DNA of 38,216 nt, taken from positions 1 through 38,216 of the forward strand of contig JAFSLV010000034.1 in NCBI GenBank assembly GCA_017448245.1, in the 5' to 3' direction. This DNA is from Lachnospiraceae bacterium (GTDB taxonomy: Bacteria > Bacillota > Clostridia > Lachnospirales > Lachnospiraceae). This document shows, one piece after another, positions 27,148-30,516 of this stretch. The position numbers and the translations under genes are program-made. Each line of letters starts with the position of its first letter. The first letter of the stretch is position 1. The notes below the pieces were generated by a model. It saw nothing but the letters and a program-made list of their open reading frames with translations, was not told the DNA's origin and did no database searches.

Positions 27148-27346
27148 ATCGGTATCCTTCTGTGCGCACCGGTTCGTTGATTTCCTAAGCTGTATCTATT
27201 GTGATCACCCGGCCTGTCGCTGCTAACGCAGCTTTACCAGGCCTCATCATTCGGAACTCCCGCGCTGCTCCGCATCGCTTCGTTCCTCATGATGCACGTT
27301 CGCTGAATGTCAGCGCCGGTTCGTGCAAGCACGACCGGGCTGCCGC
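27148..27346. other. Structured spacer between the HMA gene and the metal ATPase
   Basis: About 200 bases without a gene. A nested hairpin occupies 27211-27243 (GGCCTG...CAGGCC enclosing GCTGC-TAAC-GCAGC). A second one at 27316-27338 pairs CCGG-TCGTGC with GCACGA-CCGG. Neither is followed by a T-run on the minus strand. They may stabilise or partly end the mRNA between the two genes, or be a dispersed palindromic element. Confidence 0.5.
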
Positions 27347-27565
27347 TCAGCTCACTGTGATCACAGCATCCGGCTCGACCTTTTTGCACGCCTTGACGGC
27401 CAGCTGTACGATTTCGTCAAAGCGGTCGTCTTCCGCCTCGAGCGTAAACTTCTGCGTCATGAAATTCACACGCGCGTCAATGACACCGTCGATCTTCTTG
27501 ATGGCGTCCTCCATCTTGGCGGCGCAGTCCGCGCAGTCCACTTCGCAGTTGAATTTCTTTTTCAT
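27347..27565 (-). CDS. Free-standing heavy-metal-associated (HMA) domain protein
   Basis: 72 residues from ATG 27565, with AAAGGAG upstream. The ferredoxin-like HMA fold carries its metal site as DCADCAAKM (Cys 11 and Cys 14). The Asp before the first Cys fits Zn/Cd HMA domains better than copper chaperones. It probably acts as a detached metal-binding domain or chaperone for the P1B ATPase, which lacks its own. Confidence 0.9.
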   Translation of the reverse strand: MKKKFNCEVDCADCAAKMEDAIKKIDGVIDARVNFMTQKFTLEAEDDRFDEIVQLAVKACKKVEPDAVITVS

Positions 27566-27973: not shown

Positions 27974-28009
27974 ATGTTGAATTATATATCTCCTCCTTCC
28001 TCCTGTCAA
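27955..28009 (-). promoter_or_regulatory. Consensus promoter and ArsR/SmtB operator of the metal operon
   Basis: TTGACA (28004-28009), 17 bases, TATAAT (27981-27986) on the minus strand. Just downstream, covering the start site and first codons of arsR, is ATATGAACAATTATTCAAAT. Its core TGAACA..TATTCA (27959-27972) matches the known inverted repeat of SmtB/CzrA operators. Binding there would block RNA polymerase at the start site. Confidence 0.85.
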
Positions 28010-28122
28010 GAGGATTATTTACGTTTTTGCATCAACAGAAGATTATTTCCGCTTTGGTTTCAATCCGACTTTATGTCCGAATTTTCAAATCCCGCATGCA
28101 TCTTTGTCCGCAGATCCGGCAC

Positions 28123-28151
28123 TTGACTTCCCGCATAAAAGGGTGTAATAT
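28123..28151 (+). promoter_or_regulatory. Promoter of the aroF-pheA operon
   Basis: TTGACT (28123-28128), 17 bases, TAATAT (28146-28151). The expected start is at about 28158-28160, the first base(s) of the leader peptide ATG. The stretch 28010-28122 before it holds no gene that I can see. Confidence 0.8.
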
Positions 28152-28159
28152 ACCCCATT

Positions 28160-28258
28160 ATGTGCAGAAAACAGACGGGACAAACACAGAACGGATTTTT
28201 TTACTTTTACGGAGGCTATTACTTTACGTCCTCCGCTGTTTTGGTTGCCCGGATATAG
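28160..28258 (+). CDS. Phe/Tyr-rich leader peptide (attenuator peptide)
   Basis: A 32-codon open frame, ATG to TAG, too short for routine gene calls. Residues 13-22 read FFYFYGGYYF, so eight of ten residues are Phe or Tyr. It lies between the promoter and aroF-pheA, whose products make phenylalanine and tyrosine precursors. The -10 box ends eight bases before the ATG and there is no ribosome site, so the mRNA would be leaderless. Ribosome stalling at these codons when charged tRNA-Phe or tRNA-Tyr is scarce would change folding downstream, as in classical pheL attenuation. Confidence 0.8.
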   Translation: MCRKQTGQTQNGFFYFYGGYYFTSSAVLVARI

Positions 28259-28320
28259 ACTGCGTCGAGATTGTTTTGTAGACATGAAGCGGTTCTGCCG
28301 GGTGGCGGGACCGCTTCTTT
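28210..28320 (+). promoter_or_regulatory. Transcription attenuator of aroF-pheA
   Basis: Hairpin 1 (28210-28215 with 28230-28235, CGGAGG/CCTCCG) has the Tyr-Tyr-Phe codons in its loop. Hairpin 2 (28286-28293 with 28310-28317, GAAGCGGT/ACCGCTTC, plus inner GCC/GGC) is followed by TTTGT and looks like a weak intrinsic terminator just before the aroF ribosome site. TTGCCCGG at 28244-28251 can pair with CCGGGTGG (28298-28305) inside hairpin 2, including three G-U pairs, and is a candidate antiterminator. The pairing scheme is my inference from hand folding. Confidence 0.65.
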
Positions 28321-28340
28321 GTAATCAGGGAGGATAAGCC

Positions 28341-29348
28341 ATGATCGTCGTATTAAAAAACAACGTGCAGGAAGAAAAACGTACACAGCTCATCGAGTGG
28401 ATCGAATCGCAGGGCTTAAGAGTCCATGTCTCCACCGGCGATTATCAGACCGTGCTCGGCCTTCTGGGCAATACCGACAGAATTGACATGGAACTGATTG
28501 CCAGCATGGAAATCGTGGATACGGTGAAGCGGATCAGTGATCCCTTCAAACGCTGCAACCGCAAATTTCATCCGGAGGATACCATTGTTGATGTTGCGGG
28601 CGTGAAAGTGGGGCATGGCAACTTCTGCGTGATTGCGGGTCCCTGCTCCGTGGAATCCGAGGAACAGATCAAGGAGGTCGCAAGAGCCGTCAAGACGGCC
28701 GGTGCGCAGATGCTCCGTGGAGGCGCCTTCAAGCCGCGTACATCTCCTTATGATTTTCAGGGACTCAAGGCGGACGGCCTCGAGCTGTTAAAGGCCGCCC
28801 GCGAAGAAACGGGGCTTCCGATTGTATCGGAATGCATGGGTGTGACGGATCTTGCGCTGTTTGAGGATGTGGACGTCATCCAGATCGGCGCCAGAAACAT
28901 GCAGAATTTTGAGCTGCTCAAGGCGGTCGGACGGCTCAGCAAGCCCGTTCTTTTAAAGCGCGGGCTGGCCAATACGCTGAAGGAATTTCTGATGAGTGCG
29001 GAATATATCATGTCCGAGGGCAATGACCGTGTGATTCTGTGCGAACGCGGCATCCGTACCTTTGACGATTATACGCGCAACACGCTGGATCTGGCTGCGG
29101 TTTCGATGCTCAGGGAACTGACACACCTGCCGATCATTGTCGATCCCTCCCACGCCACGGGAATCGCAAGGCTCGTTCCCCCGATGGCGCTTGCGGCGAC
29201 AGCCTCCGGCGCGGACGGTCTCATCATCGAGGTGCACAACGATCCGATGCATGCGCTTTGTGACGGCGCACAGTCCCTGAAGCCGGAAGAATTTGATCGT
29301 CTGATGCGGCGGATCGGACGTATCCGCGACATCATCAGCGAATCCTGA
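28341..29348 (+). CDS. aroF: 3-deoxy-7-phosphoheptulonate synthase (DAHP synthase, type I beta)
   Basis: 335 residues. First enzyme of aromatic amino acid synthesis, joining phosphoenolpyruvate and erythrose-4-phosphate. A ferredoxin-like N-terminal domain (about 1-70, often the feedback site) precedes the barrel. Barrel motifs: [43 protein letters not shown] and DPSHATG. GGGAGGA precedes the ATG. It is followed by pheA after 25 bases, and both sit behind the Phe/Tyr attenuator. Confidence 0.96.
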
Positions 29349-29373
29349 ACCATTGCAAAGAAAGGCGGAAACC

Positions 29374-30516
29374 ATGGAACTGCACACATACCGGGAACAG
29401 ATCAACGAAATCGACGAACAGCTTCTGCAATTATTCGAACAACGGATGAAGGTATCCCTGGATATTGCTGAGTGGAAAAAGAAGGAGGGGCGTCCCGTAC
29501 CCGATCTGCAAAGAGAGCGGGAAAAGATCAATGAAGTCAGGGACCGTCTTCCGGAGGAATTAAAGGATTACGGAACGAGCCTGTACGGTCTGCTGATGGA
29601 TCTGTCCAAATCCTATCAGCGAAGCCATACCTCAGAACAGGGAAAAACGTCTGCGGGGATCGGGGACGCGTTAAAGAAGACGCCGCAGGTGTTTCCGGAG
29701 GATGCGGCGGTGGCCTGCCAGGGCGTGGAGGGCGCTTATTCGCAGATCGCCTGTGCGCGTATTTTCCGGCATCCGAACGTCTTGTATTTTGATACCTTCC
29801 CTGCCGTGTTCTCCGCCATCGAGAAAGGACTGTGCCGCTACGGCATGTTGCCTCTCGAAAATTCCACGGCAGGCAGCGTCAACCAGGTCTATGATCTGAT
29901 GATGCAGCATCATTTCAGTATCGTCCGAAGCGTGCGTATCAAGGTCGATCACCATCTGCTGGCAAGAAAAGGCGTTGCGCTGTCCGATATCCGCACGATT
30001 TATTCGCATGAGCAGGCAATCAGCCAGTGTGCGGGCTTTCTTTCCACCCTGCAAGGCGTAAACGTTGTGCCCTGCGAAAACACGGCGGCTGCCGCGCGAA
30101 TGGTTGCGGAGTCCGAAAGAGAGGACATCGCGGCACTATCCTCCCGTTCCTGTATGGATCTGTATGATCTGGCGTGTCTGAAGGCGGATGTGCAGGACAG
30201 CGCCAACAACTATACCCGGTTTATCTGCATCTCAAAGGAGCCGGAGATCTATCCGGGTGCGGACCGCACCTCGATGATGCTGGTGCTGCCGCACACCCCG
30301 GGCTCTCTCTACCGGACACTGTCGCGCTTCTATGCACACGGAATCAATATCAACAAGCTGGAATCCCGCCCGATGCCGGAACGCAATTTTGAATTCATGT
30401 TTTATTTCGACATTGAAGGAAGCGTCTATGCACCGCGCTTTACGCGTCTGATCGATGATCTGGAGAGCAGTTGCGAGAGTTTTGTATATCTGGGCAGTTA
30501 TACGGAGATTTTCTGA
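29374..30516 (+). CDS. pheA: Bifunctional chorismate mutase / prephenate dehydratase
   Basis: 380 residues from ATG 29374, preceded by AAAGGCGG; the ATG at 29353 has no site. It makes phenylpyruvate from chorismate. The domains are an AroQ chorismate mutase at 1-90 ([19 protein letters not shown], then KKKEGRPV), a prephenate dehydratase at about 110-290 ([23 protein letters not shown], and YTRFICIS with the catalytic TRF), and a C-terminal ACT domain with the Phe-binding ESRP in [14 protein letters not shown]. Phe feedback is therefore likely in addition to attenuation. Confidence 0.96.

Follow-up and report, generated by a model that had tools for sequence, protein, structure and literature searches.

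The pheL and pheST leaders of enterobacteria combine runs of Phe codons with an antiterminator/terminator switch, as does the leader described here, although pheL senses Phe in front of pheA alone, unlike our mixed Phe/Tyr leader. In ilvL, another leader, several amino acids from the same pathway, that of the branched-chain amino acids, are represented by codons. In Firmicutes, the T-box riboswitch (RF00230) senses tRNA charging, and control of this kind in Clostridia is commonly attributed to T-boxes. T-boxes differ from the present leader in that they bind tRNA directly, and none was matched in it. Earlier papers place T-boxes before Tyr biosynthesis genes in the B. cereus group and before aromatic genes of some Bacilli (PMC2494555), and describe His leader attenuators of hisS/hisZ in Firmicutes (PMC2965389). 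The DNA analyzed here, referred to as the window, is a stretch of 38,216 nt from a Lachnospiraceae bacterium (assembly GCA_017448245.1, contig JAFSLV010000034.1), in which the leader before aroF-pheA is probably a ribosome-mediated transcription attenuator that would sense Phe/Tyr starvation, as judged from sequence and folding models. For the leader class as a whole, ribosome-stalling attenuation is very likely.

The first gene of the operon is aroF (28341-29348; all coordinates are on the + strand unless stated), which encodes a type I-beta DAHP synthase (NF006421, 488 bits) and is the one PF00793 match in the genome. It is followed by pheA (29353-30516), which encodes a chorismate mutase-prephenate dehydratase recognized by Pfam CM_2 and PDT; its matches to ACT and to the NCBIfam PheA model were just under the cut-offs. 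Upstream of aroF, sequence reading and a scan both located a promoter-like TTGACT-17-TAATAT element at 28123-28151 (TTGACT at 28123-28128, a 17-nt spacer and TAATAT at 28146-28151). By eye, GGGTgtaatatACCC at 28141-28155 forms an imperfect inverted repeat across the -10 box, which is lacking in L082, the nearest relative. A leader-peptide frame of 32 codons plus a stop extends over 28160-28258, from ATG 28160 to TAG 28256-28258, with the predicted product MCRKQTGQTQNGFFYFYGGYYFTSSAVLVARI (32 aa), and its regulatory codons, Phe-Phe-Tyr-Phe-Tyr-Gly-Gly-Tyr-Tyr-Phe (FFYFYGGYYF), were placed at 28196-28225 by sequence reading and folding. A short frame with eight Phe/Tyr in ten arose in none of 20,000 dinucleotide shuffles of 28041-28340, and seven in ten were reached in 22. 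Among 427 short-ORF stops on the + strand and 387 on the - strand, the leader is the sole short frame of the window that is so rich in Phe/Tyr. Both the promoter and the FFYFYGGYYF frame, which a prior sequence-only reading had claimed, were thus recovered, and the locus has what an attenuator of this pathway is expected to show, a short leader frame with many codons for the amino acids made.

No Shine-Dalgarno-like site was found 4-16 nt before ATG 28160, from which the end of the -10 box is 8 nt away; neither point was raised in the sequence-only reading. Provided that the promoter is assigned correctly, the transcript would begin only a few bases from the ATG, which would call for a leaderless start. 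With the ATG present, such a leaderless start is possible for the frame.

The window's genome as a whole contains 33 sites with five Phe/Tyr codons, fewer than the 67 in the backward control. We read 25 of these 33 sites in frame, with nine re-inspected, and, besides the leader, one short ATG-opened frame outside longer open frames had a Phe/Tyr run: L223 (G000:C36:33698-33712), a frame of 36 codons with YLFFFFY at a contig end. Two other candidates, L212 and L207, were rejected as further leaders; although start codons are present, both are contained in a longer open frame or lie opposite one.

The region between 28158 and 28340, in which competing structures had been expected, was folded as a whole and gave a z-score of -3.45, with only 1 of 200 shuffles folding equally well and with alternative 1:2, 2:3 and 3:4 helices. 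Segment 1 (28162-28194) pairs with 28236-28251 and 28260-28266 when not covered by a ribosome; the 1:2 duplex reaches -21.9 kcal/mol, a value equally low in 5/200 shuffles. At its tip is a GGAGG/CCTCC hairpin (28210-28235), in or beside whose loop lie the Tyr-Tyr-Phe codons 28217-28225. This hairpin, as stressed by the sequence-only reading, was confirmed by folding, but in our models it is only the tip of the longer 1:2 structure, and the switch appears to be that between 1:2 and 2:3. Segment 2 (28247-28275), the 5' strand of the antiterminator, overlaps the leader stop codon and pairs with segment 3 (28281-28303) at -20.6 or -21.5 kcal/mol in two computations, a 2:3 duplex equally low in 2/100 shuffles. 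Segment 3 is common to antiterminator and terminator, which makes the two structures mutually exclusive, as in known attenuators. The 3:4 terminator hairpin (28286-28317; 14 bp, -25.6 kcal/mol by scan and folding) is followed by the T-tract TTTGTAATC and ends 23 nt before the aroF ATG at 28341, where the sequence-only reading had placed it. An intrinsic terminator therefore precedes the structural gene, though its U-tract is weak.

Known RNA families do not account for the region: Rfam 15 at the gathering cut-off matched no family, T-box included, in 28123-28340, and hence a T-box (RF00230) or another known RNA was rejected as the window's leader. Two sub-threshold matches in 28000-28400 had 22-23 bits. 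A search of 40 related loci (30 under the leader cut-off used below and 10 above it) likewise matched no Rfam family. The sole T-box-like match of the window's genome (L140, 1501-1771; 70 bits, under the cut-off) precedes, by eye, a tryptophan synthase beta chain-like gene. A Clostridiales-1 RNA (RF01699, 67 bits) lies elsewhere in the window at 27202-27363 on the - strand, between genes for an ArsR-type regulator and a heavy-metal P-type ATPase on the same strand.

Folding with a ribosome in place, with the transcript start taken as 28158 and the footprint size assumed, indicated how the helices may be selected. When the transcript ended at 28305, the mean antiterminator probability was 0.54 without a ribosome, 0.83-0.87 with a ribosome at Phe13-Tyr17, 0.53-0.75 at Tyr20-Phe22 and 0.03 at the stop codon; at transcript end 28309, the corresponding values were 0.01, 0.84-0.87, 0.01-0.11 and 0.00. 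The second codon cluster (codons 20-22) frees segment 2 less well than does FFYFY. Codon placement in these models is therefore that of an attenuator, in which a stall frees the antiterminator and a ribosome at the stop blocks it. At full length, the complete terminator beats the antiterminator in every ribosome state, so that the antiterminator must form first and read-through rests on the order of folding.

From the codons and alternative helices observed here, and from their recurrence in relatives, we infer where transcription begins, that the frame is translated, that the terminator acts and that Phe/Tyr supply is sensed, in the following course. RNA polymerase would start near 28158, and the 32-codon leader would be translated by a ribosome. 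If charged Phe-tRNA and Tyr-tRNA are plentiful, the ribosome would reach the stop at 28256 and cover segment 2, and the 3:4 terminator would form upstream of aroF. A shortage of either charged tRNA would stall the ribosome on codons 13-22, above all on FFYFY, and segment 1 would be covered; the free segment 2 could then pair with segment 3 while segment 4 is still to be transcribed, and this 2:3 pairing would let transcription continue into aroF-pheA. If the leader is not translated at all, the 1:2 structure would favor the terminator.

We then compared the region upstream of aroF in relatives, which were drawn from the best 80 of at least 594 AroF matches, together with the genus and the family; in the family sample, 178 of 397 genomes had an AroF match, and 29 further loci were fetched. 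After removal of two duplicates (L116 and L121), one locus with 57 nt upstream (L072) and two with partial AroF (L083 and L086), 110 upstream regions were analyzed, nearly all of 300 nt. A frame of at most 60 codons with at least six Phe/Tyr/Trp in ten was counted as leader-like, and such frames were present in 80/110 regions, compared with 2/110 reverse complements and 1.6% of shuffles; with at least seven in ten, the counts were 65 regions, 0 reverse complements and 0.09% of shuffles. Two of the 80 frames (L047 and L127) proved to be PheA gene ends (E about 1e-14, 45-48% identical to the window's PheA end). They were left in the 80-region leader, hairpin, 1:2 and 2:3 counts and removed from the composition, Shine-Dalgarno and ribosome-folding counts, which leaves 78/110 leaders, L126 among them being doubtful. 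A chance frame in front of an ordinary intergenic terminator is strongly disfavored, and is the least probable explanation we weighed: L082 does have a hairpin without a frame, but none of the 20,000 shuffles matched the window's frame, and such frames occur in these 78 relatives.

The aromatic cores of the 78 leaders contain 285 Phe, 288 Tyr and 8 Trp codons, and Phe and Tyr are both present in 76/78. The sequence-only reading had regarded a mixed Phe/Tyr sensor as unusual in a clostridium, which is not the case: leaders are common before this type of aroF, and mixed codons are the rule. The less common feature of the window is rather pheA as the second gene. The gene after aroF was a TyrA homologue in 85/108 loci, AroB in 10/108, PheA in 7/108 and others in six, in a count that includes duplicates and for which one TyrA and one AroB representative were checked. 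Trp also occurs in 7/78 leader cores (L002, L007, L071, L115, L123, L125 and the doubtful L126), and this composition suggests three-amino-acid sensors in some species. The F share of codons was 0.66 in pheA operons (n=5) versus 0.47 in tyrA operons (n=61; p 0.10), and 0.63 in aroB operons (n=9; p 0.007), with L047, L127, L013, L120, L084, L085, L054 and L136 excluded by hand; a codon mix that tracks the gene after aroF would be a lead only. Upstream of 63/78 leaders, a Shine-Dalgarno site preceded some in-frame start, the rate for single random windows being 6.8%. Before more distant AroF genes of the family (49-60% identity), leader-like frames by the same cut-off of six in ten were found in 9/60 regions (reverse complements 1/60), seven of the nine falling in the first 17 regions, those with closer AroF, and a simple pattern found a T-box motif before 4/60 of these genes. 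Contigs titled Treponemataceae, Lentisphaerae, Thermoguttaceae and Sutterella (L022, L042, L060 and L071) also carry this aroF type with Phe/Tyr leaders, which would reflect either transfer or mis-binned MAG contigs.

A T-tailed hairpin lies between leader and aroF in 80/80 regions, with a mean of -20.3 kcal/mol and 78 below -8; when the downstream part was shuffled, the mean was -8.2 kcal/mol and 77/160 were below -8. This result bears on translational control, in which alternative folds would hide or free the aroF ribosome-binding site by pairing CCTCC 28231-28235 with the GGAGG before aroF. By sequence, CCTCC is indeed complementary to either GGAGG, and the weak U-tract of the terminator would suit such a role. 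The T-tailed hairpins are nevertheless stabler than in shuffles throughout the set, and the hairpin of the window ends 23 nt before aroF with that gene's GGAGG outside it, so that we consider translational control very improbable. A sequence-specific arrest peptide that senses a free amino acid, in place of a leader that counts codons, is slightly less probable still. TnaC is an arrest peptide of this kind, and some leaders do share aromatic-rich cores such as FYFYGYYFF, but the Phe/Tyr order and the other residues vary between leaders.

For the competing helices, segment 2 was taken near the leader end and segment 1 upstream of the aromatic codons or where they begin; L063 and L066, with segment 2 too short, were left out of the 1:2, 2:3 and ribosome-folding counts. 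The 2:3 pairing was better than 95% of shuffles in 36/78 leaders and better than 99% in 17/78, and its own pairs averaged -15.8 kcal/mol versus -12.3 for swapped ones. For 1:2, the respective values were 26/78, 10/78, -17.1 and -13.3 kcal/mol. Individually, 42/78 leaders (2:3) and 52/78 (1:2) failed the 5% level against shuffles. When ribosomes were placed on 76 leaders, the mean antiterminator probability was 0.28 without a ribosome, 0.64 for a mid-cluster stall, 0.46 when the stall was at the final aromatic codon, and 0.09 at the stop; this computation gives the window 0.70 without a ribosome, compared with 0.54 in the window-only folding. The stall value exceeded the stop value by at least 0.2 in 57/76 leaders (the reverse in 2) and exceeded the value without a ribosome in 44 of 76 (the reverse in 1). 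Because the footprint at the stop reaches segment 2 in 73/76 leaders, blocking by a stop-codon ribosome is largely a matter of the position of this segment.

A subclass alignment of 22 leaders, hand-chosen from 33 with a shared segment-2 motif, gave uneven results. For the antiterminator, 85.2% of cells were paired, compared with 34-52% when slid and 82.9% in shuffles, of which 5/500 reached 85.2%, and 11 cells were doubly changed, a number also reached in 5/500 shuffles; only two pairs changed doubly, which was not above shuffles, nor were pair types. For the terminator, 9/11 pairs showed compensatory change, which 0/500 shuffles reached, and RNAalifold on the 22 leaders predicted the terminator only and not the antiterminator. 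In another alignment (A2, 24 leaders), Tyr-Tyr-Phe codons TATTACTTT were seen by eye to be complementary to AAAGTAATA just before segment 2 in many members. Judging from this complementarity, the sensing codons themselves may be part of the 1:2 helix. The recurrence of Phe/Tyr leaders, terminators and competing helices in relatives supports the ribosome-stalling attenuation with Phe and Tyr codons that the sequence-only reading had put forward.

A covariance model, R1, was built from 24 of the 33 motif-sharing leaders and run over 391 genomes of the class, where it gave 44 matches at E 0.01 or better in 42 genomes and 26/222 genera. We fetched 30 of the 44, at least three being copies of training leaders; 27 lie before aroF, L239 before pheA-aroB and L248 before tyrA-aroB, so that 29/30 precede aromatic genes and L258 precedes none of these. 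A leader with at least six aromatic residues in ten was present in 29/30. Since L239 and L248 stand before pheA-aroB and tyrA-aroB, the element is not tied to aroF. The window itself gave no R1 match up to E 10; according to our models, it works like the R1 subclass but is not filed under it.

The window's own lineage gives a mixed picture of conservation. AroF matched at E < 1e-60 in 5 of the 78 other genomes of the genus, two of them partial, with a third partial match (G043) counted. On the AroF tree, L082 is the partner of the window (100/99), and the pair is joined by L005 and L010 (100/93), whose leaders are Tyr-rich with a score of 5, under the cut-off of 6. Leader presence required 20 label changes on this tree versus 27.9 in shuffles, which indicates that the leader is clustered, yet often lost or missed. 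Conservation in relatives was expected from the sequence-only reading, and it holds across the wider clade; it does not hold for L082 (G040:C136), the nearest relative, which is of the same genus, has 83% AroF identity and is without a leader. L082 has a TTGACG-17-TAAGAT promoter before its aroF and a terminator hairpin, both resembling those of the window, with no leader between them in the 100 nt before aroF, and by eye an acetyltransferase-like gene ends just upstream. L082 is perhaps a natural loss of the Phe/Tyr sensor. A DNA search for the window's leader in the 78 other genomes of the genus gave no match.

These observations leave room for decay, since L082 is without a leader, the genus gave no DNA match and the window has no Shine-Dalgarno site. 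An ancestral leader would then have worked, with the present lineage losing it, with little translation of the frame and with a hairpin that only lowers aroF expression to a constant level. We consider this the main rival, albeit an unlikely one. It would fit the similar promoter and terminator of leaderless L082 and, in the window's copy, the missing Shine-Dalgarno site, weak U-tract and failure to match R1. What speaks against decay is the integrity of the copy: neither the frame with its Phe/Tyr run nor any of the four pairing segments is disrupted, and against shuffles both duplexes, 1:2 and 2:3, rank in the best few per cent (5/200 and 2/100).

If the attenuation reading is true, many lineages of Clostridia control DAHP synthase, the gate of aromatic amino acid synthesis, by ribosome-mediated attenuation. 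With no Rfam match in 40 loci, such leaders are likely unannotated, and a class model would let them be found and yield natural two-amino-acid sensors with which to test the effect of codon mixtures on sensitivity. More interesting than the supposed rarity of the class, which is not supported, is how broad it is. A more tentative, and rather doubtful, extension is that a Clostridia attenuator class reading Phe and Tyr (sometimes Trp) codons is a main control of entry into the whole aromatic pathway, that it takes the place occupied by T-boxes in some relatives, its mixture of codons being adjusted to each operon, and that the window's version is read from a leaderless mRNA with the leader ATG as first codon, the sister species having lost it.

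Among the papers listed in literature searches, of which the longer result lists were covered at their top, no Phe/Tyr attenuator class before aroF in Clostridia was recognized, with the qualification that PMC6429828 may overlap. The Fig. 6b legend of that paper, a study of five genomes that include Clostridium novyi, names two candidate uORFs that, like the leader here, have notable Phe and Tyr residues before shikimate metabolism genes; unlike for the leaders here, the passages on them do not give the genomes and genes or 1:2/2:3/3:4 switching. The uORFC-13-1 motif, as presented in passages of PMC8632094, is alike in having a uORF before aroF, a U run coding for Phe, an adjacent intrinsic terminator and proposed attenuation; it differs in being confined to Acholeplasma and environmental sequences (24 examples), with at least one Phe and with Tyr unmentioned in those passages. 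Histidine leader attenuators, as excerpted from PMC9413887, likewise represent leader-peptide attenuation in Firmicutes, including Peptostreptococcaceae, but respond to histidine, with three lineages named. The ilvB-II leader of Corynebacterium, as outlined in part of PMC11109978, resembles the window's leader in that a single leader serves more than one amino acid from the same pathway through its codons, the difference being that it concerns branched-chain amino acids and other genes.
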